From Niveispirillum lacus (GTDB taxonomy: Bacteria; Pseudomonadota; Alphaproteobacteria; Azospirillales; Azospirillaceae): a stretch of DNA of 64,000 nt. The position numbers were made by a program, and so were the translations under genes. Within the stretch, counting starts at the first letter, position 1. Every line of letters starts with the position of its first letter. Under the pieces are notes generated by a model, which did no database searches, was not told the DNA's origin, and saw only the letters and a list, made by a program, of their open reading frames with translations. Positions 14,156 through 32,308 of the stretch are shown here, one piece after another. The stretch is taken from positions 49,344 through 113,343 of the forward strand of contig NZ_NOXU01000027.1 in assembly GCF_002251795.1 (NCBI RefSeq), in the 5' to 3' direction.

Positions 14156-14707
14156 ATGGGATGGCGCGACCGGGCAGAGGGTGATGGGGCGCAGGGATCG
14201 GCGGATGATCTGTCCTGGCTGGTCGGCACCTATTGGTACGTGCCGACCGAATATCTGCCTGCGATGCAGCAGGTGAATGTGACAGAGCCGAAGATCACCC
14301 AGGTAAATGACCAGACGCTCTGGTACTTCACCGAATACAGCAACGGCTATCTGGTTGGCCAATGTGCCGCCAGTGTCGATGGTGATGATTTTGAGTATCA
14401 GAGCATCGTCGGGTCGGTCACGCCGGAGGGCACCGTCTGCCTGTCCTTCACCCCTGTCGGCGGCATCAGCCTGCACCCCGTTCGCGGCAGCGTGTCGGTA
14501 GCCAATTTCATTGTTGGGCAGGGCAAGATGGTCAAGCATCAGGGCGAATGGGCCTTTCTGATGCAAATGACGGGCGGCAACGGCGTCTATAACCTGACCC
14601 ACTGGGCCTATATGATGCAAACCCGCCCCGGCGACCAAAGCTGGACCAACCTGCCCGGCACCGATGGCAGCCAAAGCGTGGACGAGATTTTCGCCGATTG
14701 GGGGTGA
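14156..14707 (+). CDS. Uncharacterised 183-aa soluble protein
   Basis: Function not recognised. The ATG is preceded by a strong ribosome site (AAGGAGAGG at 14141-14149). No signal peptide or membrane segment is seen. The protein is rich in aromatic residues and predicted beta strands (LSWLVGTYWYVP, TLWYFTEYSNGYLVGQ, GEWAFLMQMTGGNGVYNL), suggesting a small beta-barrel or sandwich fold of lipocalin-like size; that is only an impression. It is followed by a small gene whose start lies 4 nt after its stop, so the two are probably co-expressed. Confidence 0.75.
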   Translation: MGWRDRAEGDGAQGSADDLSWLVGTYWYVPTEYLPAMQQVNVTEPKITQVNDQTLWYFTEYSNGYLVGQCAASVDGDDFEYQSIVGSVTPEGTVCLSFTPVGGISLHPVRGSVSVANFIVGQGKMVKHQGEWAFLMQMTGGNGVYNLTHWAYMMQTRPGDQSWTNLPGTDGSQSVDEIFADWG

Positions 14708-15230: not shown

Positions 15231-15569
15231 TCAGAGTGTCCTCATCCGGTCCCTGGCCAGATCAAGATCGGCCTTGGGCGTCTCCTGGGTTTTCTTGATG
15301 AACCCGTGGAGCAGGACCATACGCCCGTCATGCACACAGAACAGAACCCGTGCGATACGGTTCCGGAGATGCGTGCGAACTTCAAACAAGCCATCCCCCA
15401 TGGGACGACATGTCGGCATGCCAATCGGCCAGCCGAATTCAACTGTCCTGATATCGTCACCGATCAGTTCGCTATCAGGCTTGCCCAGTTCACGCAGCCA
15501 CTCGCGCACCGGCTCTGTGCCAGCAGCCAACGTGTAGAAGCGCGCAGGCAGGCACTTTAACGGAACCAT
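15231..15569 (-). CDS. HigB/Gp49-type toxin (RelE superfamily)
   Basis: A 112-aa protein of the phage-derived Gp49-like/HigB family (PF05973 type). Supporting motifs are VREWLRELGK near residue 21, the strand-rich core GDGLFEVRTHLRNRIARVLFC and the C-terminal HGFIKKTQETPKADLDLA. The Lys/Thr-Pro segment KKTQETP is the hallmark of the family. Members are ribosome-dependent mRNA interferases. Upstream GGAGG sits 7 nt before the ATG. The pair is a free-standing module between polA and dxs. Confidence 0.9.
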   Translation of the reverse strand: MVPLKCLPARFYTLAAGTEPVREWLRELGKPDSELIGDDIRTVEFGWPIGMPTCRPMGDGLFEVRTHLRNRIARVLFCVHDGRMVLLHGFIKKTQETPKADLDLARDRMRTL

Positions 15570-18176: not shown

Positions 18177-18971
18177 CTAACGGCCGAACTGCCACCAAAG
18201 TGCCAACAGGGCCATGCGCTCGCCGCCGGCATTGCGGCCGCCGATGGCTTTGGACAGCCCAACCTGAAGCCCTACATCGTTGGACAGTCGCCGCACGGCT
18301 GACAATTGAACCTTGTATCGGCGCACATCGCCATAGCCTGGGCCCGGCGTCCCGGTACTGACAGCATTAAAACTCTGAGCCAGCAGCAGCCAGTCGACAT
18401 CCGGCCGCCAACCCCATGTCAGGTCCAAACGAAGCTCATCCGCAGCCGGGCCGCCGCGCGTGCGGTAGGCCAGTTGCCCGTCGAAGAACCCGCTGTCGAA
18501 CCCGTACCCGTAAAGCGCACGCATTTCCGCATCCACCTTGCCTGACCCCAGCGGTGGCTGGGCACCGCGATCGTAGCCCAGCGGCACGCGGATCAGGGGT
18601 TGCAGCGCCACAATCTCCGCCCCGGCCTGCCAAACGGTCCGGCGCAAGGCAAATTCGGCATCGGCCAGACCGGCCGCCTTATCGCTGCCGCCGTCCGCAT
18701 CGTCGGCTTTCAGCGACTGCCATGAAGGCTGGACACTGAGGGTGGTCGTACCGTCGACCCCCCAGGAAATCAGCGGTGACACCTCCAGCTTGCGGAACTT
18801 GGGGTCGGGGCCGCCGACGCGGCCATCAAAGCCGCTGTCCGATTGTGAAAAGGTGGCGCCGGCAATGACCTCCATGGTCCCGGCAGCCTGCGGCCAGGCC
18901 CCGGCCATAGCAGGGGCGGCGGGCAACAGCAGGCCAATGGCCAGAAAGACAACAGACTTAAGACAGGACAT
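18177..18971 (-). CDS. Outer-membrane beta-barrel protein, phenol-degradation-transporter-like
   Basis: A 264-aa secreted protein. The signal peptide (about 1-23) ends APAMA. The rest is alternating amphipathic strands (MEVIAGATFSQSDSGF, LRLDLTWGWRPDVDWLLLAQ, YKVQLSAVRRLSNDVGLQVGL) ending in aromatic ...LLALWWQFGR, like outer-membrane barrels of the MetA-pathway/DUF transporter type. The start lies 3 nt after the stop of the receiver protein gene, so it is the last gene of the five-gene operon. It could be the export pore for the glycan, but no TPR scaffold like BcsC is present. Confidence 0.75.
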   Translation of the reverse strand: MSCLKSVVFLAIGLLLPAAPAMAGAWPQAAGTMEVIAGATFSQSDSGFDGRVGGPDPKFRKLEVSPLISWGVDGTTTLSVQPSWQSLKADDADGGSDKAAGLADAEFALRRTVWQAGAEIVALQPLIRVPLGYDRGAQPPLGSGKVDAEMRALYGYGFDSGFFDGQLAYRTRGGPAADELRLDLTWGWRPDVDWLLLAQSFNAVSTGTPGPGYGDVRRYKVQLSAVRRLSNDVGLQVGLSKAIGGRNAGGERMALLALWWQFGR

Positions 18972-18974
18972 GCT

Positions 18975-19928
18975 TCAGCCTTCCTCGGACGGCACCATGG
19001 CGCCATCCACAATCCGACCACCGCCATGGGCACGGGCATGGTCCAGTCCCCGCCGGGCAATAGCCGCAGCCTCCAGCCCGACGCCATATCCGGCAGACAG
19101 GGTGACATGGGGGCCGGCATTGGACCGCGGATGCGGGATGCGGGCACGCCCAACCAGTTCGACCAGCCGTTCGGCAGTGTCGCGGGCCAGTCCGGGATCC
19201 GCATTTTGGAACAGGATGGCCAGCCGGCCATCGCCGGCCATGGTCAGCACATCCCCGATCCGCCCCGGCAAACCAGCGGCCAGTTCCATGACCCGCCGGG
19301 TTAGCGCGGCTGCCGGGTCAGCGCCATCCACCTCTTCCAGGCGACCGAAATCATCAATAGCAGCCATCAGCACGGCACCGTGATGGCGCCGCTGTGCGCG
19401 TTCGGACAGAAGCTGAAGCGTCTGAGCCGGTCCGGGCCACCCCAGCCCCGCAACGAAACCAGCATCCGATAGCGACAATTGTCGACGATCTGCTGCCAGT
19501 TCGGCCAGCTCACCTTCCCGCGCCCGACGCCGGCGGGCCTCCGTCCGCCAGCGCAGGGCCGATTGCACCCGCGCGCGCAGCGCCATCACAGAGGCCGGCT
19601 TGACCACAAAGTCAAACGCGCCGGCAATGAAGGCTTGGTTCAGCGTCTCCTCATCCTCCAACGACGACACCATGATCACGGGAACATCGGCCAGCCGGGG
19701 ATTATCCTTGATCAGGCAGGTGGCGGTGATTCCGTCCATTTCTGGCAGCATGATATCCATCAGCACGATATCGACCGGGCATTGCTCACCCTCGATCCGC
19801 CCGACATCCAGAGTGGCCAGCGCCTCCTCGGCGCTGGCAGCCATGATGAACGGACCATACCCGCAGGCATTCAGTTGTGCTGCCAGCAGTTCCCGGACCT
19901 CCTCTATATCCTCGACGATAAGGATCAT
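18975..19928 (-). CDS. Response regulator: receiver domain plus degenerate GGDEF domain
   Basis: A 317-aa protein. The receiver domain (about 1-125) begins MILIVEDIEEVRELL and has the phosphoacceptor Asp in DIVLMDIMLPEMDG and the conserved Lys in FVVKPAS. A linker (about 130-165) leads to a GGDEF-like fold (about 175-310). The substrate and catalytic signature is replaced by AGDGRL where GGDEF is expected, though a HVTLSAGYG strand like VTxSxG remains. It should therefore not make c-di-GMP and may act as an allosteric switch. An upstream in-frame extension overlaps the membrane-protein gene and was rejected; the ATG at 19928 is 1 nt past that gene's stop. Confidence 0.85.
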   Translation of the reverse strand: MILIVEDIEEVRELLAAQLNACGYGPFIMAASAEEALATLDVGRIEGEQCPVDIVLMDIMLPEMDGITATCLIKDNPRLADVPVIMVSSLEDEETLNQAFIAGAFDFVVKPASVMALRARVQSALRWRTEARRRRAREGELAELAADRRQLSLSDAGFVAGLGWPGPAQTLQLLSERAQRRHHGAVLMAAIDDFGRLEEVDGADPAAALTRRVMELAAGLPGRIGDVLTMAGDGRLAILFQNADPGLARDTAERLVELVGRARIPHPRSNAGPHVTLSAGYGVGLEAAAIARRGLDHARAHGGGRIVDGAMVPSEEG

Positions 19929-19929
19929 G

Positions 19930-21489
19930 TCATTCCCCCCCGTTCCTTTCGCCGGCCGGCAACCGCCAGACACGCCAGTCATCCCTGTCATAGACCAGCA
20001 CGGCCCCCCTTCCTGCATCCTGCCACAGATCGGGCAGGGCCTGTGCGATCCGGTCACGGGCACCTGCCGGCCTGGCAGGCGCCCGCAACGCCACATAGGC
20101 GGTGCGCAACTGCCCGACGATCAGATCGGCTTTTAATCGGTCATTGCTGGGCAGAACCAGTCCCGCCGCCCGCCCCCGGCCCGGCAGCACCGCCCCCGCG
20201 GTCAAGCCGTCGATGGCCACGTCATTCAGGTCGCGCAGGAAATGTCCCAGGGCCAGGTCACCTTTGGTGGAACCCTCGACCGGCCCCTGCCCCAGTAGCG
20301 CCAGCCGCCAAGCCGATGCATGGGCATCGCCGGTCTGATCCTGCGCCCACCAGCCAGCCACCAGCCCCAGTAAGACCAACAGCATCAGCAGACCCCCGCG
20401 TCGCTGGTGGCGCCCCGCCACCGCTGCCGCCAGGACACAGACCGGCGCCAGGTAGGCCAGCAACCGCCCTGGATCCCCAAGGAACCAGGTGGCAGAACTG
20501 AGGACCAGCGCCGTCAGGATCATCCCAGTCAGCAGCAGAAGGACCCGCCGCGCCCCCCGATCCCCAAACCACAGCCCCATGGCCAGCAATGGCGCATTGG
20601 CCAGGATCAGCAGCACACCGAAGACCAGCGCCGTGCCGATGCTGCCGCCCGGTCCCAGCAACCAGGGACTGTCGCCGATCTGTGCAGCCGAACCGTGAAT
20701 GGCGGCATCAACGCCAGCAGCAAAAGCCAGCGGCGAGCCACCAAACACCCAGTTTGCATAGAACAAGGCGATGGCGGCAAAGATCAATGGAAACATCACC
20801 ACCAGCAGGCTTCCCGAGGCCGATGTCGCCACCATACGGGCGGGCAGCAGCAGGGCGATGAAGGGCACCGACGCCAGCACCAGATAGGCTCCGGCCGCAT
20901 CGGCCAATGCCAGAAAGGCCAGGGAAACACCCAGCGCGATCATGTCATTGACCTCCCCCCGCCGGGCCAGCCGTTGGGCGGCACTGACGGCGACGGTGAA
21001 GGCCAGGACACCGAGCGGTGCTGAACCACCGGCGGCAACGGTCGGCGCCAGGGCGGGAGCACTGGACAGCAGCGCCGCCGTCACCAGGGAAGGTAAAAAC
21101 CGATACCCACCGGCCACCAGCAGACGCACCCAAAAGGCCGCTGCGATCGCGAGCATCAACACATTGACCAGCAAGGGCGGCGGCATGCCGCCCAAGCCGG
21201 GGATCAGGGCGATGATCATGTCAAAGGCCAGGGGCAGGACGGGATAGGCTGTACCCGTCAGGTCCCGGAAGGCCCCGACATCAGCAGTGGCCAGCAGGGC
21301 CCGGGTCCAGCGATCGGCCATCGCGGAGTCCAGCCACCCACCCTGCATCGGCCAGGACGCGACAAACCCGATGAACGGTAGCAGCAGCGCCAGGGCGACG
21401 GGGAAAAGCCAGCGCGGGACCGACCGCCCACCCCGTTTATCCATGTGAACTGGTACGAAATTGCCGTGGCTGGCGGCGGCCATGGTCAT
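19930..21489 (-). CDS. Polytopic inner-membrane protein, possible GT-C-like enzyme
   Basis: A 519-aa protein with about 10-11 hydrophobic segments between residues 23 and 390 and a soluble C-terminal part of about 130 residues. The first loop, GGWLDSAMADRWTRALL, followed by acidic residues, is the layout of GT-C glycosyltransferases and of polysaccharide-modifying membrane proteins. No diagnostic motif was recognised, so the function is open. The start ATGA overlaps the stop of the GT2 synthase, implying translational coupling. It is likely a dedicated partner of the synthase. Confidence 0.8.
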   Translation of the reverse strand: MTMAAASHGNFVPVHMDKRGGRSVPRWLFPVALALLLPFIGFVASWPMQGGWLDSAMADRWTRALLATADVGAFRDLTGTAYPVLPLAFDMIIALIPGLGGMPPPLLVNVLMLAIAAAFWVRLLVAGGYRFLPSLVTAALLSSAPALAPTVAAGGSAPLGVLAFTVAVSAAQRLARRGEVNDMIALGVSLAFLALADAAGAYLVLASVPFIALLLPARMVATSASGSLLVVMFPLIFAAIALFYANWVFGGSPLAFAAGVDAAIHGSAAQIGDSPWLLGPGGSIGTALVFGVLLILANAPLLAMGLWFGDRGARRVLLLLTGMILTALVLSSATWFLGDPGRLLAYLAPVCVLAAAVAGRHQRRGGLLMLLVLLGLVAGWWAQDQTGDAHASAWRLALLGQGPVEGSTKGDLALGHFLRDLNDVAIDGLTAGAVLPGRGRAAGLVLPSNDRLKADLIVGQLRTAYVALRAPARPAGARDRIAQALPDLWQDAGRGAVLVYDRDDWRVWRLPAGERNGGE

Positions 21490-23399
21490 GATGATTGCCC
21501 CATGCTGGCCAACGCCTTGGCCACTTCCTGCTTGGTGGTCTGTGACAGGCCGTGCTGAGTCTTTTCCCAGTAGAATGGATTCTTCACCAGTTGCCACAGC
21601 GCCTTGTAGGCCGCTACCGACATCAGCGCCCAGTAACCAATGACCGTCAGGCCCCAGGGCGCCAGATTGGTCCAGCCGCGTTTCACCGGCGCGATGATCG
21701 AGATGTAGGTAAACAACCCATTGCCGGCCAGAAGGTTAAACAGTGACAGGTATAACAAGGCCGTCGGGAACAGCGGGTCCAGCCAGGTCCCACCCAACAG
21801 CAGCCACAGCAGGTAGAAGCCCCAGAAGATCGGGTTCAGCAAGCCCGACAGCATGGTGCCACCGATAAAGAACTGGAACCCCCAGAAGCCGCCCGCGCCC
21901 ACCGATTTATAGAGGTGGATCGGGTCCCGCATATGCACCAGATAGGTCTGCATATAGCCCTTGATCCAGCGCGAACGCTGACGCACCCAATTGGGAATGG
22001 AGACATTGGCTTCCTCGAACGTGGTCGAATTCACGACCCCGACGCGATAGCCTTTCTGTGTCAGCCGCACGCCCAGATCGGCATCCTCCGTCACGTTGAA
22101 CGGATCCCAGGCGTGAAGTTTGGTCAGCACATCCATCCGGAAATGGTTCGACGTACCGCCCAGCGGGATCGGAATATTCAACCGTTCCAGCCCGCCCAAC
22201 ATGAAATCAAACCATAGCGAATAATCCAGTGTGAACATCCGCGTCAGCCAATTTTCATTGGCATTGAAATAGTTCAGGCGACACTGGATGCAGGCGGTAT
22301 TGGGCGAGGCCTTGCGGAAAGCCACAACCACCTTTTTCAGTTGGTCCGGCTCCGGTTGGTCCTCTGCGTCGAAGATCACCAGATACTCGCCACGGGCAAA
22401 GCGCAGGGCATAATTGCAGGCCTTGGGCTTGGTCTGCGGTTTGGAAGCGGGCACCCGGATGATCTCAAATATGCCTTCCAGGCCCAGCGACTTGGCCGCG
22501 TTGATCGTCTCATGGTCACCCGCTTCCAGCACCAGCTTGATATCCAGCTTGGCGATGGGATAGTCCAACCGGCGCAGCGCTGCCGCCAGGATGGGCAATA
22601 CCTCCGGCTCCTTGTACATGGGGACCAGAACGGTAAAGGTCGGCAGATCATCATCATTGAGGGCCGCGACCTCGGCGTCGGTCACCTTGCGATCTACCTG
22701 TTTGGCATCAGCCCCGAACCAGACCAGGATGGTCTTCAGGAAGAAATTACCAAGATAGAACAAGGCCATGATGACATTGGTCACGATCAGGGTGCCAATG
22801 GGAGCAAAGGCCAGACCCAGCAAGAACACCGAGAGCAAGGCGTACAGAAACAGCATCTGGCCCGGCGTCACGACCGTGCGGGCGGAACTGCTAGGGTCCA
22901 TGTCGGCCAGGGCATGCACCGCCAGATGGTTAAACTCCTCCTCGAACAGTCGTTGTAAGGTCCAGACAATGTCGAACTTCGACGTCACGACCATCCGGGT
23001 CCTGGGTCCGTAGGTCTGGCGGGCGAACAGCATGGCCTTGGGCCCCGGATCGGCTGTCGCGACCGTGACGACATCGCCTTCCTTCTTCCAGGGCAACAGC
23101 AACAGACGGCTGTAATCCTCCATCTGGGTTTTGTCCGCGAGCCCTTCTTGCGGTGGCTGCGCCATCATGTCGATGAAGGGCAGACGGAAGCGGTCGGCCA
23201 GTGTGCGGTAGAAGTCCCGGGCCTTGACCATACCCTGGGAGATCACAACGTCACCGAACGGCACTTTCCACTGCCGTTGCAGTTCCAGCGCACGCTCCAC
23301 CTGCGCGACCGTCATCAAGCCCTTGGCCAGCAGAAGCTCGCCAATGGGCGGGACCGTATCGCTACTGGTTGGAGCGGCAGGCGGGGGAAGAGGGACCAT
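21486..23399 (-). CDS. GT2-family polysaccharide synthase with N-terminal MshEN (GspE-N) domain
   Basis: A 637-aa processive-type glycosyltransferase. Residues about 18-155 form a GspE-N/MshEN domain with two family-type motifs, IGELLLAKGLMTVAQVERAL and FGDVVISQGMVKARDFYRTL. Two membrane segments follow (about 182-228). The GT2 domain has VPMYKE (260-264), acidic DAEDQPEPDQL (344-), TED (437-439) and QRSRW (474-478), the D,DxD,TED,QxxRW set of BcsA-like synthases. Three or more further membrane segments follow. MshEN domains bind c-di-GMP in other proteins, so activation by c-di-GMP is likely, in place of the PilZ domain of cellulose synthase. The sugar is unknown. The gene starts 6 nt after the BcsB-like gene. 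Confidence 0.92.
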   Translation of the reverse strand: MVPLPPPAAPTSSDTVPPIGELLLAKGLMTVAQVERALELQRQWKVPFGDVVISQGMVKARDFYRTLADRFRLPFIDMMAQPPQEGLADKTQMEDYSRLLLLPWKKEGDVVTVATADPGPKAMLFARQTYGPRTRMVVTSKFDIVWTLQRLFEEEFNHLAVHALADMDPSSSARTVVTPGQMLFLYALLSVFLLGLAFAPIGTLIVTNVIMALFYLGNFFLKTILVWFGADAKQVDRKVTDAEVAALNDDDLPTFTVLVPMYKEPEVLPILAAALRRLDYPIAKLDIKLVLEAGDHETINAAKSLGLEGIFEIIRVPASKPQTKPKACNYALRFARGEYLVIFDAEDQPEPDQLKKVVVAFRKASPNTACIQCRLNYFNANENWLTRMFTLDYSLWFDFMLGGLERLNIPIPLGGTSNHFRMDVLTKLHAWDPFNVTEDADLGVRLTQKGYRVGVVNSTTFEEANVSIPNWVRQRSRWIKGYMQTYLVHMRDPIHLYKSVGAGGFWGFQFFIGGTMLSGLLNPIFWGFYLLWLLLGGTWLDPLFPTALLYLSLFNLLAGNGLFTYISIIAPVKRGWTNLAPWGLTVIGYWALMSVAAYKALWQLVKNPFYWEKTQHGLSQTTKQEVAKALASMGQSS

Positions 23400-23405
23400 G
23401 CCGGA

Positions 23406-25469
23406 TCACGTCTTCGGCGGGCGGTTTCGATACCAGCGGCGCAAGGCCCCGACACCGACCAGGGTCAACAGACCCCAGGCACCCAGCACCAGCACGATGC
23501 GGAACCGGTCCAGCCAATCGGCCCAGCCGGCATCATCAGCCACCACCACCCGCACCGCGCGGTCGCGCACCGTGTCAAAGGCCATCAACATGCCCGTCGC
23601 GTCGGCAAAAGCGACATTACCCCTGTCAAACGACAGACGTGGTATGCCCGGCGGCACCCGACCGTCATGGGTGGTCAGCGAAAGGCCGGGGGTGTCATCC
23701 AGATTGGTAAGCTGGGCCGTGACCAGCCCGCTACTACCCGTGATATCCAGCAGGACCTGCCCTGACCGGTCCTGCACCGACACGGCCCCACGATCCAGGC
23801 GCACGGGCAGGTCGGCCTTGCCCGGCAGGCTGGCGCCCGGCAATTGAATGAAGGGTGTGATGGGCACGGCCTTGCCATCGCCGATAATCACCGACAGTGG
23901 CGCCTGAACAGGCACAAGGTCGGCAACGATACGGGCTGCAAGGTTGATGGCATTCAGATCCCTCAACTGGTCCGCAGTAACAACAAGGGTCGCCCCCTTG
24001 GCCATGGCGGGTGACAGGGCATAGAAATCGCCAGGCTTCGTGTTGTCGGGTGCCAGGGTCACGCGGCTGCCTGGCAGGATCTGAGCCGGGCTGGCCAACG
24101 GCGCCTCACGGCAATCGCCACCGGACGGCTGACGCTGCAACACGATGCGGATGGCGTTGGACCGGCCCAGCAGACCATCGGGCAACGGCACCGACATCCG
24201 CTGCACCTTGCCGCCATCGGTCAGGGAAACGCTGCGCAGCAATGTGTTATTGACGAAGACATGCAGCAACTGCGGCCGGTCGCCCATGGTGCTGCCGGGC
24301 GCCAGCTCAATCTCCAGTGCCGCCGGGCGCTGACCATGCGGCACCTGCGTGTAATCCAGGCGCAGCGGCCACTCTGCACGGTCAACCAGTTCCTGTACGC
24401 CCTGGCCCAAGCCCAGGGCCGCGAAGGGGATGCCGTCAGCACCAATCAGGCTGGCCGGCGGTGGTTTGGCGATGGTGATGGCATTGGCCGTCATATCGGA
24501 CAGGGCGGACCAGCCATCGGTCAGGAAACGAACCTTCTCTCCGTCAATCCCGTCCAGAAGTGCGATGGAGGGGGCACCCATACCCTTCAGCAGCCCGATA
24601 TCAGCACCGCCGGAGGTGTCCAGTTCATACTTCCTTTCAGGGCCGGCCTTGGCCTGCATCACACTGATAAAATCGTTGATCTCCGCCCGGGAGGCGACGA
24701 AGACGCTGCCGGTATCCATCTCTGCCAAGGTCGGCAGGGGCGGCGGCGGCGGAAGGCCAACCTGAGCGGCGGTGGCATCCGCTGCCGGGGTCGCCGCAGA
24801 CGGGATGCGGATGATCTGGACGCGGCGCCCCTCACGGATCAACGTCGCGGCCAATCGGATCACAGCCTGGAACTGCGTCGCGCTCAACCCTTCTGCTGAC
24901 ACGAAGATGCTGACGCGCGGTCCCAGCGCCGACCAGGCGGCGCGCACGCTGTCGATCCTGGCGGGATCAATCCTGTAGGTTACGGCGCTGTCGGGCGACA
25001 GGGTGACAAAGCCGCCAGGCAGCCGTTGATCGACGCAGCGATTATCGGTCCATTGCGCGCCCCAGGCGATGGTGGCCTTGGTAAAGGCCTGCCGCGTGTC
25101 AACCCGCTTTAAGCTGGTAGCGACCGATTGCGCATGGGCCCCCGCCTTCAAGGCGCCCGTCCAGCGCGGTTGGTCATCCAACAGCAATTGCACTGACGCC
25201 CGCTGCCCTTCGGCCAGGACCGTATCCAGATTCATCTCCAACTGAAGATTGTCGGTCGGGACCCAGGCTGGCAGCGGGAAAAAGACATCCTGCCGGGCAG
25301 AGATGCCCGACAAGGTAACCCCGTTCGGATAGCCCAGGTCGCGCAGCGTCACAGTGCGGATCGCCGGGTCTGCGGGATCGGCGGCCATGACCGGGGCGAC
25401 CAAGGCGGTTCCCGTGTACAAGGTGGTGAAGAAGGCGGCGATCAGGGCGTGGCGCATGGGGCTTACCAT
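23406..25469 (-). CDS. BcsB-like periplasmic subunit of a polysaccharide synthase
   Basis: About 687 aa and exported. The N-terminus is MVSPMRHALIAAFFTTLYTG with cleavage near VMAA. One C-terminal membrane helix (FRIVLVLGAWGLLTLVGVGAL) is followed by a basic tail, the anchoring seen in BcsB. The beta-rich body with repeated modules beginning RTVTLRDLGYPNGVTLSG and the later ALGLGQGVQELVDRAEWPLR fit the cellulose synthase regulatory subunit family (PF03170). BcsB guides the growing chain across the periplasm. The ATG at 25457 is an alternative start; neither has a clear ribosome site. It is the first gene of the operon. Confidence 0.88.
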   Translation of the reverse strand: MVSPMRHALIAAFFTTLYTGTALVAPVMAADPADPAIRTVTLRDLGYPNGVTLSGISARQDVFFPLPAWVPTDNLQLEMNLDTVLAEGQRASVQLLLDDQPRWTGALKAGAHAQSVATSLKRVDTRQAFTKATIAWGAQWTDNRCVDQRLPGGFVTLSPDSAVTYRIDPARIDSVRAAWSALGPRVSIFVSAEGLSATQFQAVIRLAATLIREGRRVQIIRIPSAATPAADATAAQVGLPPPPPLPTLAEMDTGSVFVASRAEINDFISVMQAKAGPERKYELDTSGGADIGLLKGMGAPSIALLDGIDGEKVRFLTDGWSALSDMTANAITIAKPPPASLIGADGIPFAALGLGQGVQELVDRAEWPLRLDYTQVPHGQRPAALEIELAPGSTMGDRPQLLHVFVNNTLLRSVSLTDGGKVQRMSVPLPDGLLGRSNAIRIVLQRQPSGGDCREAPLASPAQILPGSRVTLAPDNTKPGDFYALSPAMAKGATLVVTADQLRDLNAINLAARIVADLVPVQAPLSVIIGDGKAVPITPFIQLPGASLPGKADLPVRLDRGAVSVQDRSGQVLLDITGSSGLVTAQLTNLDDTPGLSLTTHDGRVPPGIPRLSFDRGNVAFADATGMLMAFDTVRDRAVRVVVADDAGWADWLDRFRIVLVLGAWGLLTLVGVGALRRWYRNRPPKT

Positions 25470-25531
25470 TGACAGGGGGCCGTGGCCGGTTCCCGATGGC
25501 AGCCGGCGGTTGAAGGGCGGAGGGTGGCGGA

Positions 25532-26533
25532 TTGCAGCGGGAACGATATGCCTCGCGGCGCGGCATTCTGAAACTGGCGGCGGGTCTGGCAGGGCTGGGC
25601 CTGCTGCCAGCGGGTTGCACGGGTGCTGGCGCGTCGCCCTGGCGGGGTGTGAACCTGATCGCAACGCCGGATGCGCCGCTGGGGTCCGCCGCCTGCGGGC
25701 ATTCCCTGCGCCATCTGCGCAATCAAGGCGGCAATGCTGTCGCCCTGATCCCGTTCCTGTGGCAGCCGGCGCCCGCTGACCCCCGCATTGTGCTGGGTGA
25801 CGCCGTCAGCGCAGATCAACTGCGCGCCGGGATTCGTCAGGCCAGGAACCTGGGTCTGAAGGTGCTGGTCAAACCCCATGTCTGGGTACCACAGACCTGG
25901 GCCGGCGCGATCGAATTCACGCAAGCCGCCGATCAGGCAGAATGGTTGGCCCGCTACCAAGCGCTGCTTCTCGACCTCGCCATCCTGGCACAGGAAGAGG
26001 GAGCAGAAGCCCTGGCATTGGGAACGGAACTGCGCGGCGTCAGCGGCGATCCTGCCTGGACCCGCATCATCACACAGGTGCGCAACCGGTTCCGGGGGAT
26101 CCTGACCTATGTCGCACATTGGGATGGCGAACTGGATCGCCTGCCCTTCCGCACCTTGCTGGATGTCCCATCGATCAGCCTCTACCCGCCGCTGGGCGAG
26201 GATGATGCTGGCTTGGCTGGACGGATTGAGGCCCTGGCCGCTGCCCTGGCCAGACAGGGGCCGCTGTGGGTGGGCGAACTCGGCCTGCGCAGTGCGGTGG
26301 GCGGTCAGTTGAAACCCTGGGAAAGCCCCGAAGAGCGCGCGGCGCTTCCCGATGGTGATTTGCAGGCCCGGGTCCTGGACCATTGGCTGACGGCCCTGAG
26401 CCGTCACGGGTTGCACGATGTCCTGCTGTGGCGCTGGTTCAGCGATCCCGATGCCGGTGGCCCGCAGGACACCGACTTCACCGTGCAGGGTAAGCCCGCA
26501 GAAGCGGTGTTGAAGCGACATTTTGGGAGCTGA
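25532..26533 (+). CDS. Tat-exported lipoprotein glycoside hydrolase, GH113-like
   Basis: A 333-aa protein starting at TTG with a strong ribosome site (GGAGGG at 25518-25523). The N-terminus shows a twin-arginine motif SRRGILK, a hydrophobic stretch and lipobox LPAGC, so it is probably a membrane lipoprotein exported folded. The mature part has WRGVNLIA, VKPHVWVP, the acid/base candidate in ALGTELRG and the nucleophile candidate in WVGELGLRS, consistent with a clan-A TIM barrel such as GH113 (beta-mannan/glucan hydrolases). It is divergent from the synthase operon with a 62-nt gap. It is probably the trimming enzyme for its product, analogous to BcsZ; that role is inferred. Confidence 0.8.
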   Translation: MQRERYASRRGILKLAAGLAGLGLLPAGCTGAGASPWRGVNLIATPDAPLGSAACGHSLRHLRNQGGNAVALIPFLWQPAPADPRIVLGDAVSADQLRAGIRQARNLGLKVLVKPHVWVPQTWAGAIEFTQAADQAEWLARYQALLLDLAILAQEEGAEALALGTELRGVSGDPAWTRIITQVRNRFRGILTYVAHWDGELDRLPFRTLLDVPSISLYPPLGEDDAGLAGRIEALAAALARQGPLWVGELGLRSAVGGQLKPWESPEERAALPDGDLQARVLDHWLTALSRHGLHDVLLWRWFSDPDAGGPQDTDFTVQGKPAEAVLKRHFGS

Positions 26534-27028: not shown

Positions 27029-27928
27029 TCAAGGACGCCAGTCCTGCCGCGCCGCCCAATCCTCCAGTCCTGTCAACGTCACAGGCAGATCGGCCAGGAC
27101 CGGGGCCATATCGACATAGAAGGGTTTCTCCTCCCCAAAATTGTACCATTCATAAATCCGGCGCAACTCACTGGTCAGACGGTCATGGTCAAGCGTCGTC
27201 ACATCCTTGAACACGCCGGCCATGGCCGCGCAGAAATCCGGGATTGGGCGTGGGTCGAACCGCAGCGAACGGCCCAGCACGGCACCCAGCCGACGGGCCA
27301 GGTCAGGCCCCCGGATGGCTTCTGCACCACCAACATTATACGCACGGCCCGAGAGATGAGGCCGGTCCAGGGCGGCAATCATCAGATCCGATACATCATC
27401 CTGGCAGATCCAACAGACATCCAATTCGGGATGATGCGGATAGAAAAGACGCCCTTCCTCCAGGATATGTTTACGCGCCCAGGCACGCAGCAGATTGTCC
27501 AGATAGATCACCGGCTGGATCGACACGATGGGCGTTCCACTGTCGCGCAGTCTTTCCCGCATCTCCCAGCGGGCATCATGGGCGGCGAAGCCGCGCTTGC
27601 CCTCCTTGATGATCATGGAACTGTTAAAGACCGTCATACGCAGCCCCTGCCGCTGCGCCGCCATGCCAATGGCCTCCACCGCCCGGATCAGCGGTTCCGC
27701 AGCCTGGAACGAGGTGGACGGCATGGTGATGAACAGCGCGTCGATCCCATCCAGGGCGCGGACGAGGCTATCGGGATCACGGTAATCGGCGACCACACTG
27801 ACCACCCCGGCGATGGCTATTTTTGCAGGATCGCGGGCGACGGCAACGGGCGTGTGGCCGGCGGCGACCAGGCGGCGCAACTGCGCTTGCCCCTGGTCAC
27901 CCGTGGCACCAAAAACCAGAACTTTCAC
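27029..27928 (-). CDS. NmrA-like NAD(P)-binding protein
   Basis: A 299-aa atypical short-chain dehydrogenase-fold protein. The N-terminal MKVLVFGATGDQGQAQLRRL is the dinucleotide-binding GxxGxxG of the NmrA/HSCARG type. VVSVVADYRDPDSLVRALDG follows, typical of the second fold unit, and there is no YxxxK catalytic pair in the usual place. It may be a quinone/isoflavone-reductase-like enzyme or a redox sensor. Its start overlaps the MFS gene stop (ATGA), so it is the last gene of a TonB receptor/SnoaL/MFS/NmrA operon. The substrate is unknown. Confidence 0.85.
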   Translation of the reverse strand: MKVLVFGATGDQGQAQLRRLVAAGHTPVAVARDPAKIAIAGVVSVVADYRDPDSLVRALDGIDALFITMPSTSFQAAEPLIRAVEAIGMAAQRQGLRMTVFNSSMIIKEGKRGFAAHDARWEMRERLRDSGTPIVSIQPVIYLDNLLRAWARKHILEEGRLFYPHHPELDVCWICQDDVSDLMIAALDRPHLSGRAYNVGGAEAIRGPDLARRLGAVLGRSLRFDPRPIPDFCAAMAGVFKDVTTLDHDRLTSELRRIYEWYNFGEEKPFYVDMAPVLADLPVTLTGLEDWAARQDWRP

Positions 27929-29295
27929 GCCTCACTCTCCCGCTCTGCCAGGGCCGCCCGGAAGGCGCCGAGACCGCGCAGCATCAGGATCGACGCCCCG
28001 ATGCTGGACACCGAACAGACCAGGGCCAGTGACCACCCCACCATACCCGGATCACCAAACAAGCGGTCGGTAATCAGGGCGATGAAGGTGGGAGCCAGGC
28101 CCAGCCCAACAATGGAAACGGTAAATACATAGAGCGACGAAACCACCCCGCGCATGCGATTGGGTGTCACCATCTGGATGGATGAGGCTGCCATGGCCAT
28201 GGGCAACGTGTAAAAGAAGGTCACCCCCACCGCCGCCGCGAGGGCCAGTTCATAAGTCGGGCAGAAGGGCAGCATCACCGCAAACGGCACCACGCCCAGT
28301 GTGGTAAGAGCCGGGGTGCGGAATGCAGCATCACGATAGCCGCGGGCAGCCAAAGCCTTGGCGACATAGGGCCCGCACCACACACCCAACGACCCGGCGA
28401 TCAGCACCGACGCCCCATATTCCAGCCCTACCGAGGCCATGGACACGCCATGCTGCCGGATCAGGAAGCTGGGTATCCAGGCCGGAAAGGCGTAAAGGGC
28501 GATGACATGCAGCGACATGCCGCCATAAAATGCGCCGTAAAACGCCCGCTTTTCGGACAGGAACTGCCAGATCTGGCCCAAGGTGAACCGTTCCTGCTCC
28601 GCCCTGCCTGTTCCCTTGGCCCGCGGCGGCTCCCGCACCGTCAGCATGACGGCCGCAAGCAGCAGACCGGGCGCACCGACAACGATGAAGGCCAGATGCC
28701 AGGGCGCCAGCAGCCCGAAGGGCCCCGCATCCACCGGTCCGACATGACCCAACTGTTGGATGACCAGTCCACCGAAGATCAACGCCAAGCCGCCTCCCAG
28801 ATAGGGGCCCATGAGAAAGATGCTCATGGCGCGCGGCAGTTTTTCCTTGCTGAAATAATCGGACAGCAGTGACCAGGCCGCCGGCATCAGGCAGGCCTCC
28901 GCCCCCCCCACACCCATCCGCGCACCGAACAACTGCCAATAGGTCTGGGACAGGCCGCAAAAGATGGTGAACACCGACCAGATGGTCACGCCGGTCCAGA
29001 TAATGGTCCGGCGATTGCCGATATCCGTCCACCGCCCAAACACCGGCCCCATCACGACATAGGCAACGGTAAAGGAGAGGCCCTGTAACAGGCTGATCTC
29101 CGTATCCGACAGGCTGAACTGCCCTTTGATCGGCTCCACCAGCAGATTAAGGATCTGCCGATCCACAAAAGCCACGGCATAGGCGATGGTCAGCAGGATC
29201 GTGACGTACCAGGCATAAAGCCCATCGCGGGGGACCGGCCGAAGCTCGGTCTTGGATGCGGGTGTATCGATGCCGGATATCGGGCGATTGCTCAT
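27925..29295 (-). CDS. MFS transporter, spinster-like
   Basis: A 456-aa permease with 12 predicted membrane helices and an MFS loop 2-3 signature beginning GRWTDIGNRRTII after the second helix. The start VAFVDRQILNLLVEPIKGQF is typical of the Spns-like/anion-cation symporter branch often paired with TonB-dependent receptors in sphingomonads and related bacteria. The start overlaps the upstream SnoaL-like gene and the stop overlaps the downstream NmrA-like gene. It probably carries the compound taken up by the receptor across the inner membrane. Confidence 0.92.
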   Translation of the reverse strand: MSNRPISGIDTPASKTELRPVPRDGLYAWYVTILLTIAYAVAFVDRQILNLLVEPIKGQFSLSDTEISLLQGLSFTVAYVVMGPVFGRWTDIGNRRTIIWTGVTIWSVFTIFCGLSQTYWQLFGARMGVGGAEACLMPAAWSLLSDYFSKEKLPRAMSIFLMGPYLGGGLALIFGGLVIQQLGHVGPVDAGPFGLLAPWHLAFIVVGAPGLLLAAVMLTVREPPRAKGTGRAEQERFTLGQIWQFLSEKRAFYGAFYGGMSLHVIALYAFPAWIPSFLIRQHGVSMASVGLEYGASVLIAGSLGVWCGPYVAKALAARGYRDAAFRTPALTTLGVVPFAVMLPFCPTYELALAAAVGVTFFYTLPMAMAASSIQMVTPNRMRGVVSSLYVFTVSIVGLGLAPTFIALITDRLFGDPGMVGWSLALVCSVSSIGASILMLRGLGAFRAALAERESEA

Positions 29296-29888
29296 TGATC
29301 GGCTTTCCCATCCTGGGCGTGGTCGGGAGCGTGATCTTGGGCGTGATAAAGCCGCCAGCTTGGTAGCGCCTCGGGGAAATCGGCCGGCCGCCGGTCACCA
29401 TAGGCGCGCTGGCGCAGCGGATCGCCCAACGCCTCGGCATATTCGCGCACCGGGAGATAATAGAAAAAGGTCAGCAAGCGGTCAGCGAAGCGCCAGGTGC
29501 CATCGGCCCCCCGCCGATATTCATCCAGATACCGCAACGCCGTCAGCATCGCCTGGCCATTGCGCCAGACCTCGGCATGCGAGGTGACGATACCCGTGGC
29601 CCGGTCCGGGTCGGCATCGTCAAACTGGACGATCTTGTCATGGGTGAAATGATTGCAAGGCCCCAGCGCTGCAAAGCGACCGCGATATTGCTCGATCACG
29701 GCCGCCCGCCCGCGCGCATCCAACACCCCGTCCTTGGACCGGAAAGCACCATCTTCGGTGAAAAGATTGGCCAGCCCCTCCAGGTCACGGTCATCAACCG
29801 TCAAACCATAGCGGGCCACCAGATCATTGATCTCGGCACGGGCCTCCAGCCGGGCGATGCGCTGTTCCAGGGTCAGGGTCGTTGCCAT
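29292..29888 (-). CDS. SnoaL/NTF2-like protein
   Basis: A 198-aa cytosolic protein of the NTF2-like superfamily, close to SnoaL-4 or small dioxygenase subunits. The typical start is IARLEARAEINDLVARYGLTV, then DDRDLEGLANLFTEDGAFRS and an HFTHDKIVQFDD strand. Such proteins are isomerases, dehydratases or hydroxylase partners for small ring compounds. The ATG at 29888 (MATTLTLEQ) is preferred; an upstream ATG adds only MINRTGVP. A long palindrome lies 31-59 nt upstream. The stop overlaps the MFS start. Confidence 0.85.
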   Translation of the reverse strand: MATTLTLEQRIARLEARAEINDLVARYGLTVDDRDLEGLANLFTEDGAFRSKDGVLDARGRAAVIEQYRGRFAALGPCNHFTHDKIVQFDDADPDRATGIVTSHAEVWRNGQAMLTALRYLDEYRRGADGTWRFADRLLTFFYYLPVREYAEALGDPLRQRAYGDRRPADFPEALPSWRLYHAQDHAPDHAQDGKADQ

Positions 29889-29918
29889 GGGTACACCCGT
29901 TCGATTGATCACCGTTGA

Positions 29919-30013: not shown

Positions 30014-32308
30014 TTAGAACTTCGCCGACAGTTCTACACCATAGGTCCGGGGCACACCGCCCCACACCGCACGATGGGTGCCGCCGTCAAAGCCGAAATC
30101 ATAATATTGGGCGTTGTTCAGGTTTCGCCCGAACACGGACAGGGTGTAACTGTCATTCAGGGAATAACTGACCGACGCATCCCACAATCCATAGGAATCC
30201 AGGGCCAGCGACGGGCTGTTCAGCGTATCGATGAACTGGTCATCGACCCAGGTGTAGGAGGTACGGAAGCGCAGCGAACTGGTCTGCGTCACCGGCACCT
30301 CGTAACTGGCCGCAACGGCATATTGCCATTTTGGCACACGCTCGAACTTCAGATCTTTTGCAATCGGACCGTCGATCGCCGGCTCATACACACCATTCCG
30401 GTTCGTGTCGATATTGGCAAAACTATCATAACCGGCATTGGTGTAACCCAACGACGCATCCAGCGTCAGGGCGTCGGTAACCAGGAAGGAACCTTCCAGT
30501 TCCAGACCCCAGATGGTGGCCGAGGCGGCGTTTCGCGGCACCTGGGTCACCGTCGGCAGGCCGTTGACGATGACTGTGTCAGAAACGGTTCGCTGAATGT
30601 TGGTGTAATCCGACAGGAAGGCGGCGGTATTCAGGCGCAGGCGCCGGCCCATGAGCTCACTCTTCATGCCAGCTTCATACGAGGACACGGTTTCTTGGTC
30701 CACCGGCCCCAGAACGGCGGCATTGGTGGCACGGGCATTAAACGAACCGGAACGGAAGCCTTTGGTCCAGGACGCGTAGAGCAACACATCCTCATCGACC
30801 TTCCAATCCAGGCCGACCTTGGGTGAGAAGCTGTTCCACTTGTCATCATTACGGAGCCTTGCCACAGGGCAGGCGTTGAAATTCAGGCTGTTATAGAGGG
30901 CGGCGTTGAAGGGACACAACTCGATCTCCTTCTTCTCCACCGTATAGCGTCCCCCCAGGATCAAAGACAGTTGATCGGTGAATTTTACCGAACCTTGGCC
31001 GAAGACGGCATAGGAGCTGTCATCGGTCTTGGCGATGCCGACGGTGCGTGAAATGACGGGCGCGGTCGCCGGGCCGCTGGCATAGGCCGCACGCCTTTCG
31101 GCGATATACATCTCCTGGGTGAAGTAATAGAGGCCCGTCGTAAACTCCACCGTGTCGGAGAAATTCGACGCGTAACGCAGCTCTCCCGAATACTGGTGCT
31201 GACGCTCCCGGTTATCCGGGAACTCAAACACGATATGGGGTGAGCCGTCGAAATCGGTGGAGGAATTGAATTTCACCTCACGATAGCCGGTGACCAGCGA
31301 GACGATGCCATGGCCCAGATCCAGGCTGGCATCAACGATGCCATGGCCGGCCTTGGTGTCGACATAACCCTGTTCATTGTGGTTGATGTCATATTTGTCT
31401 GCCGGCGGGGTATAGCCGAATACGCGCTGCACTGTGGCAGGAGAGGCCACAAGTTGGCCATTGACCAGCAACAGACGGGGGTTGATGCGGCTATCCTTGT
31501 TCTGCGAGGCCGACGATCCCCCCTTGTCCCGGTAATATTCGCCAATCAGATCAACGGTCAGCACCTCATTGGGTGTCCACCGGAACGTGGGGCGCAAGAT
31601 GGCGGTGTCGACATCCGGCTTGTTGCGGCCTGTCGTCAGGTTCTTGAAATAGCCATCGCGGCTTTTCGACATGGCGGCAATCTTACCGGCCAACTGTCCC
31701 TCGATAATAGGGAACCGCACCGAGGCTGACACATCCATGCGGTCATAGTTGCCATAAGTGACTTTAATGTCAGCGCCCAGATCGCCCGTGGGCCGGGTCG
31801 ACAGGACGGAAACCGCACCGCCCGTCACATTCTTGCCGAACAGCGTGCCCTGCGGACCGCGCAACACCTCTACCGACGCAATATCGAACGTGTCCTGCAT
31901 CGAGGCCGGGCCAAAGCCGATATAGATGCCGTCCACAAAGGTGCCCACGGCGGGATCGACGGTGCGAATGGTGTTCGATGAACCGATACCGCGAATGAAA
32001 AAGTTGGAGAAACCGCCAAAGGTACCTGACTGGTTCAATTGGATGTTCGGTGCCATGCGGCCCACATCCACGAGATCGGTGGCAAAACTTTTTTCGATGG
32101 CATTGGCATCAAAGGCCGTAATGGCAACCGACACGGACTGCACATCCACAGCACCCGCCCGCTTCTGGCTGACCACCACAATCTCGTCCAGCATGGGACC
32201 GGTATCGGCCTTCTGCTCCTGCGCGGCCGCCGGCAGCACTCCCGAAATCAGCGCCAGACCCAATGCCAGCAGGGACGGACGCCACGACAATTGTGCACGC
32301 ATAGACAT
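30014..32308 (-). CDS. TonB-dependent outer-membrane receptor
   Basis: A 764-aa protein with signal peptide (ending VLPAAAQEQ, about residue 30) and TonB-box-like MLDEIVVVSQKR. The plug domain (about 50-165) contains FGGFSNFFIRGIGSSN and VEVLRGPQGTLFGKN. A 22-strand barrel of about 600 residues ends in an aromatic, ...YGVELSAKF. The sequence type belongs to the catabolic receptors common in sphingomonads rather than clear siderophore or B12 receptors. It leads the operon with SnoaL-like, MFS and NmrA-like genes. The ligand is probably a hydrophobic or aromatic compound (inference). Confidence 0.95.
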   Translation of the reverse strand: MSMRAQLSWRPSLLALGLALISGVLPAAAQEQKADTGPMLDEIVVVSQKRAGAVDVQSVSVAITAFDANAIEKSFATDLVDVGRMAPNIQLNQSGTFGGFSNFFIRGIGSSNTIRTVDPAVGTFVDGIYIGFGPASMQDTFDIASVEVLRGPQGTLFGKNVTGGAVSVLSTRPTGDLGADIKVTYGNYDRMDVSASVRFPIIEGQLAGKIAAMSKSRDGYFKNLTTGRNKPDVDTAILRPTFRWTPNEVLTVDLIGEYYRDKGGSSASQNKDSRINPRLLLVNGQLVASPATVQRVFGYTPPADKYDINHNEQGYVDTKAGHGIVDASLDLGHGIVSLVTGYREVKFNSSTDFDGSPHIVFEFPDNRERQHQYSGELRYASNFSDTVEFTTGLYYFTQEMYIAERRAAYASGPATAPVISRTVGIAKTDDSSYAVFGQGSVKFTDQLSLILGGRYTVEKKEIELCPFNAALYNSLNFNACPVARLRNDDKWNSFSPKVGLDWKVDEDVLLYASWTKGFRSGSFNARATNAAVLGPVDQETVSSYEAGMKSELMGRRLRLNTAAFLSDYTNIQRTVSDTVIVNGLPTVTQVPRNAASATIWGLELEGSFLVTDALTLDASLGYTNAGYDSFANIDTNRNGVYEPAIDGPIAKDLKFERVPKWQYAVAASYEVPVTQTSSLRFRTSYTWVDDQFIDTLNSPSLALDSYGLWDASVSYSLNDSYTLSVFGRNLNNAQYYDFGFDGGTHRAVWGGVPRTYGVELSAKF

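Follow-up and report, generated by a model that had tools for sequence, protein, structure and literature searches.

A Niveispirillum lacus gene cluster very probably encodes an Xag/Sfz-type exopolysaccharide synthase

Six neighboring genes of Niveispirillum lacus were originally predicted to form an apparently new polysaccharide synthase cluster, and the question raised by this locus is whether they constitute a system of their own or belong to one that already has a name. The window, as the term is used here, is the whole stretch of 64,000 nucleotides that was analyzed, and it comes from a host genome of 4.97 Mb. The six genes, which span positions 18177-26533, were taken from the list of open reading frames (ORFs), their starts were then refined, and domains were assigned with Pfam. 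The features are listed by position.

18177..18971, minus strand: predicted 12-strand outer-membrane barrel (XagA/Sfz5-type), 264 aa; AlphaFold2, Foldseek and homology to XagA
18975..19928, minus strand: receiver plus GGDEF-like domain lacking the GGDEF signature, 317 aa; Pfam and alignment
19930..21489, minus strand: membrane protein (XagC/Sfz3-type), predicted GT-C-fold glycosyltransferase, 519 aa; AlphaFold2 and Foldseek
21486..23399, minus strand: MshEN plus GT2 polysaccharide synthase (XagB/Sfz2-type), 637 aa; Pfam MshEN and GT2, motifs
23406..25469, minus strand: BcsB-like periplasmic subunit (Sfz1-type), 687 aa; Pfam BcsB (1.2e-8) and homology to Mariprofundus ferrooxydans
25470..25531, no strand: divergent intergenic region, 62 nt; no consensus promoter found
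25532..26533, plus strand: GH113-type lipoprotein (XagD/Sfz4-type) with twin-arginine-like leader and lipobox, 333 aa; Pfam GH113 (1.1e-28)

The ORF coordinates agree with the original prediction of five minus-strand genes with tiny gaps or overlaps and a divergent hydrolase gene 62 nt away. Within the tightly packed block, a 6-nt gap separates the BcsB-like gene from the MshEN-GT2 gene, which overlaps the membrane protein gene by 4 nt; the membrane protein/receiver (REC) junction has a gap of 1 nt and the REC/barrel junction one of 3 nt. Pfam also returned the predicted domains (BcsB, MshEN-GT2, REC/degenerate GGDEF and GH113), and fold prediction bore out the barrel. A promoter scan of the 62-nt divergent gap found no site, and an Rfam search of the 64-kb window found no riboswitch.

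Elsewhere in the window, a 183-aa ORF without a Pfam match follows polA (14156-14707, plus strand), and a Gp49/HigB-type toxin-family protein is encoded at 15231-15569 on the minus strand (PF05973, 3.6e-21). NmrA-like, MFS transporter and SnoaL-like genes follow one another with touching ends at 27029-29912 on the minus strand; next comes a TonB-dependent receptor gene (30014-32308), and the row resembles a small catabolic or uptake operon.

To place the cluster, we scanned named genomes with the GT2 alignment and compared the flanking genes by profile search and then directly. Over about 600 aa, the GT2 protein aligned with 59% identity to that of Xanthomonas cucurbitae and with 54% identity to those of M. 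ferrooxydans PV-1 and M. micogutta ET2. The BcsB-like protein (25% identity, E 2e-53) and the membrane protein, which sits directly after GT2 (27% identity, E 2e-46), aligned to M. ferrooxydans sequences; the GH113 protein showed 43% and 35% identity to XagD/Sfz4-type enzymes, and the barrel showed 28% identity (E 2e-15) to Xanthomonas XagA. Profile searches linked the membrane protein to Xanthomonas XagC (4e-7) and the barrel to the gene in the Sfz5 position (1e-8 and 2e-6); judged by sequence, these two profile-only correspondences are the weakest. The gene order is barrel-GT2-membrane protein-GH113 in X. cucurbitae (locus L057) and BcsB-GT2-membrane protein-GH113-barrel in Mariprofundus (loci L061 and L062), and the genes at these loci were equated with the published xag and sfz1-5 names by content and order.

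Both sets have been named before: xagABCD in Xanthomonas (Tao et al. 2010; PMC3609779, PMC3528676) and sfz1-5 as a candidate twisted-stalk cluster of Mariprofundus (PMC8250860). Kato et al. had already labeled FeOB genes as bcsB plus xagBCD-like (PMC4643136). Five of the six genes in the window match xagABCD and sfz1-5 by homology and clustering, which contradicts the original view of a gene set without a named counterpart; because both the literature and the homology search point to xag and sfz, we rejected the idea of a new system. The cluster instead adds a member not described before to a biofilm-sugar machinery that is known but poorly understood. In X. campestris, deletion of the xag cluster reduces polysaccharide and abolishes biofilm, and in an X. 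oryzae rpfG mutant the raised biofilm is removed by deletion of xagA or xagB (PMC3609779, PMC3528676); mutant proof of a role in biofilm or stalk exopolysaccharide comes from Xanthomonas only (PMC3609779). A literature search on Niveispirillum exopolysaccharide returned nothing relevant in titles or abstracts. The Niveispirillum cluster is very probably an Xag/Sfz-type member that acts as an exopolysaccharide synthase.

Xanthomonas xagABCD and the window share a contiguous set of barrel, MshEN-GT2, XagC membrane protein and GH113 enzyme, whereas the Xanthomonas operon lacks both a BcsB gene and a REC/pseudo-GGDEF gene, places the barrel first and has a co-directional GH113 gene. About 2.5 kb downstream of xagABCD, X. 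cucurbitae carries a BcsA-like GT2 gene with a BcsB homologue (L057:16669-21209). Mariprofundus and Ferriphaselus carry the candidate stalk cluster sfz/sfb, also termed "xag-like" (PMC8250860, PMC4643136). It shares BcsB, MshEN-GT2, membrane protein and GH113 with the window, and the gene after these, at the place of Sfz5, encodes a homologue of the barrel; unlike the window, it has no REC/pseudo-GGDEF gene and carries a large Sfz6 CotH protein. In Mariprofundus Sfz2, unlike the window GT2, the N-terminal motif region occurs twice. The Sfz2 N-terminus is longer at both L061:9974-12058 and L062:9998-12052, and the L061 extension matches the MshEN motif region again. By sequence comparison, then, the REC/pseudo-GGDEF gene is the sole extra gene in the window relative to both published forms.

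The window cluster also resembles the Bcs cellulose synthase (BcsA, BcsB, BcsZ, BcsC) in combining a GT2 and BcsB with a periplasmic endo-glycanase and an outer-membrane channel; however, it lacks a PilZ domain, a BcsZ-family hydrolase and a TPR domain. The original prediction was thus right in describing a BcsA/BcsB-type synthase cluster in which MshEN replaces PilZ, GH113 replaces BcsZ and a non-TPR barrel takes the position of BcsC. NfrB of the E. coli glycan system likewise carries GT2 and MshEN in one protein. The window GT2 N-terminus matches NfrB residues 480-625, and the arrangement is reversed relative to NfrA/NfrB (PMC8669469, PMC8669472), as MshEN lies behind GT2 in NfrB and in front of it in the window.

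The cluster is present in 9 of the 10 other genomes of the genus; G004 lacks it, and a contig end cuts it in G005 and G007. One congener (G008) lacks only the REC gene. All six genes occur in a genome of the same family (G028) and five in a genome of another family (G110), where the barrel was not found by ORF search. Across 289 alphaproteobacterial genomes, six carry the XagC/Sfz3-type membrane protein, with GT2 directly adjoining in five, and the REC/pseudo-GGDEF gene is also found in several other alphaproteobacterial clusters. Co-occurrence in relatives had been proposed as a check, and the set is indeed kept together in the genus, G028 and G110. Because of this retention, and because the membrane protein gene lies beside GT2 in alphaproteobacteria, the genes form a unit kept together by selection and not by chance.

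MshEN-GT2 relatives also occur in Bacillota and Actinomycetota (L110, L121, L124 and L126), mostly without a barrel, and in Clostridium and Desulforamulus a BcsB-like gene lies downstream. In many Bacteroidota (L074:5243-7774 and other Mucilaginibacter loci) the core is BcsB-GT2-membrane protein; a gene for a histidine kinase lies immediately upstream, and a GH5 gene lies on the opposite strand.

Pfam assigned Glyco_trans_2_3 (2.7e-24) and MshEN (1e-9) to the GT2 protein. Its motifs DAED, TED and QRSRW are intact, and they are near-invariant in 91 aligned sequences. The BcsB-like gene is the sole BcsB match in the genome. The closest curated synthase model to GT2 is CelA; identity as a cellulose synthase was rejected, as the CelA score (52.7 bits) is far under the cutoff (699.1) and Pfam gave no PilZ match.

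The published c-di-GMP-binding motif of MshEN is RLGxx(L/V/I)(L/V/I)xxG...LxxxLxxQ, in two copies (PMC5013675). At these sites the window protein has PIG...G...Q and PFG...G...R, keeping the glycines and the first Gln and losing the Arg from both motifs and the Gln from the second. The domain nevertheless scores 44.5 against the NCBIfam c-di-GMP motif cutoff of 38. In the sister species N. irakense, the Arg is kept in motif II only, and the binding residues vary widely across the family, with the best conservation in Mariprofundus, Nitrospinota and Aquificota. Based on these alignments, direct c-di-GMP control is likely for the family as a whole but uncertain for the Niveispirillum copy, because its MshEN binding residues are partly lost. 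Of the proposed c-di-GMP control via MshEN, the presence of the domain and its score above the motif cutoff hold up, whereas the partial loss of the binding Arg and Gln counts against it.

Control might pass instead through the receiver protein, in which Pfam found Response_reg (3.3e-21) and a weak GGDEF match (1.9e-5). Nearly all of the 16 aligned homologues retain D58 and K110. The GG(D/E)EF signature is absent from all 16 aligned proteins, and the window protein has AGDGR at the site; an active diguanylate cyclase was rejected on this ground. As judged from the alignment, the protein is probably a phosphorylatable regulator without cyclase activity. A somewhat unlikely alternative is that this protein and its kinase exert the control and that this MshEN copy no longer binds c-di-GMP. 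Such a shift would fit the residues lost from both motifs, the stronger MshEN erosion in Sulfitobacter, Salipiger and Croceicoccus, all of which carry the REC gene, and the large gene that follows REC in two Rhodobacterales clusters, a histidine kinase gene in the one scanned. However, the MshEN domain still passes the motif cutoff, erosion also occurs in Acidocella, Belnapia and Mucilaginibacter, lineages without the REC gene, and one sister species has the cluster without REC.

For the family, where direct control via MshEN is likely, a 2015 paper listed xagABC among operons expected to encode a still unknown c-di-GMP receptor (PMC4624772). The MshEN domain could be the receptor missing from the xag literature; a literature search found XagB and MshEN (as whole words) together in no paper of the collection searched.

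The membrane protein of the window had no Pfam match. An AlphaFold2 model built with 48 family members reached pLDDT 91.7 and pTM 0.91, and all of its Foldseek matches down to rank 18 were GT-C glycosyltransferases or complexes with one, at TM-scores of 0.29-0.49. These matches include EmbC, AftB and PglB, as well as AftA, OST, ALG12, Pmt4 and ArnT, the last five with a Foldseek probability of 1.00. Among the family members, 6 of 48 matched PMT_2 and 7 of 48 matched NF047440, a putative-glycosyltransferase model; the window protein matched neither. In Bacillota, clusters of Clostridium drakei, Desulforamulus, Paenibacillus and Sporolactobacillus hold a gene combining GT2 with GtrA_DPMS_TM, the layout of polyprenyl-phosphate-sugar synthases (DPMS-like). 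A GtrA_DPMS_TM search of the host genome found no DPMS-type donor enzyme and one GtrA match of 156 aa without GT2.

For the XagC/Sfz3-type protein, a GT-C glycosyltransferase fold is predicted with confidence. The glycosyltransferase activity of this protein we only infer, because the acid (Asp/Glu) of the first external loop occurs in most family members but is missing from some. The absence of this expected acid, for example from Chloroflexi members, and the shorter, divergent XagC of Xanthomonas would suit a scaffold or transporter that has a GT-C-like fold and no enzyme activity. We consider that quite improbable, given that the top structural matches are all glycosyltransferases and that DPMS-like genes adjoin the cluster, and we retain the reading of the protein as a glycosyltransferase.

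Pfam gave no match for the barrel protein, which has no TPR part. AlphaFold2 predicted a beta-barrel of about 12 strands (pLDDT 90.9), and the nearest solved folds in Foldseek were the COG4313 channel and FapF (TM about 0.7). Homology places XagA and Sfz5 in one predicted 12-strand barrel family, through which the glycan chain may pass. The leader of the GH113 protein, read directly from the sequence as SRRGILKL...LLPAGC, combines a twin-arginine-like motif with a lipobox. Both E166 and E249 are found in all eight family members compared, and they line up with E151 and E231 of 4cd6, a beta-mannanase of solved structure; we take these two to be the catalytic residues of 4cd6.

Tentatively, the most likely product would be a beta-1,4-mannan or glucomannan, favored because of the GH113 enzyme and of neighboring GDP-mannose genes. 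A Synergistaceae cluster has ManC/PMI directly upstream, above the curated cutoff, four Bacillota clusters have neighboring GMP_PMI relatives below the cutoff, and a phosphomannose isomerase gene adjoins sfz (PMC8250860). A beta-1,4-mannanase disperses Xanthomonas biofilm, and its regulation runs opposite to that of xag (PMC3528676); this is circumstantial evidence for mannan. The window cluster contains no sugar-nucleotide gene; the host genome can make GDP-mannose-type precursors. Several other neighbors scanned in other phyla are unrelated housekeeping genes, to which we gave no weight.

A beta-1,4- or mixed-linkage glucan, on which the GH113-type enzyme would act as BcsZ does on cellulose, is a possible though less likely product. 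The BcsA/BcsB-like architecture, the CelA model as closest curated match and the Bacteroidota GH5 enzymes, which are closest to endoglucanases, would agree with it; a weaker match is a bifunctional endomannanase/endoglucanase. GH113 structures in the PDB, however, carry the name beta-mannanase, and the ManC/PMI and GMP_PMI-type genes of Synergistota and Bacillota also argue against a glucan.

The genes present, their homologies, their predicted folds and the intact active-site motifs of GT2 and GH113 are observed; from them we infer an order of action, a mode of regulation and a product, with mannan or glucomannan as the preferred polymer. The XagB-type GT2 would draw on a sugar nucleotide to polymerize a beta-linked hexose chain, which it would extrude across the inner membrane, and the BcsB-like subunit would take up the chain in the periplasm. 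There, the XagC-type GT-C-fold protein may decorate it from a polyprenyl-phosphate sugar and the GH113-type lipoprotein may trim or release it, with the XagA-type 12-strand barrel providing outer-membrane passage. Production would be gated by the MshEN domain and the phosphorylatable REC/pseudo-GGDEF protein.

The same gene set thus appears in two separate literatures, as the "uncharacterised" Xag polysaccharide and as candidate stalk genes of iron oxidizers. Their comparison suggests testable roles: XagC/Sfz3 would be a GT-C glycosyltransferase and XagA/Sfz5 a channel in the outer membrane, Sfz4/XagD would belong to GH113 and not to GH10, and the XagB/Sfz2 N-terminus would be a c-di-GMP-binding-type domain, not a piece of a secretion ATPase. 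More speculatively, and with some doubt on our part, Xag/Sfz clusters may be a widespread bacterial synthase of GT-C-decorated beta-1,4-mannan or glucomannan that makes the same polymer in Xanthomonas biofilms and iron-oxidizer stalks. If so, this polymer would be the Xag polysaccharide of Xanthomonas biofilms, on which the dispersing beta-1,4-mannanase ManA might act; it would also be the organic matrix of iron-oxidizer stalks, and a polyprenyl-linked GT-C enzyme would add its decoration in the periplasm. As a harmless bacterium, a Niveispirillum may serve as a model for learning the composition of the polymer.
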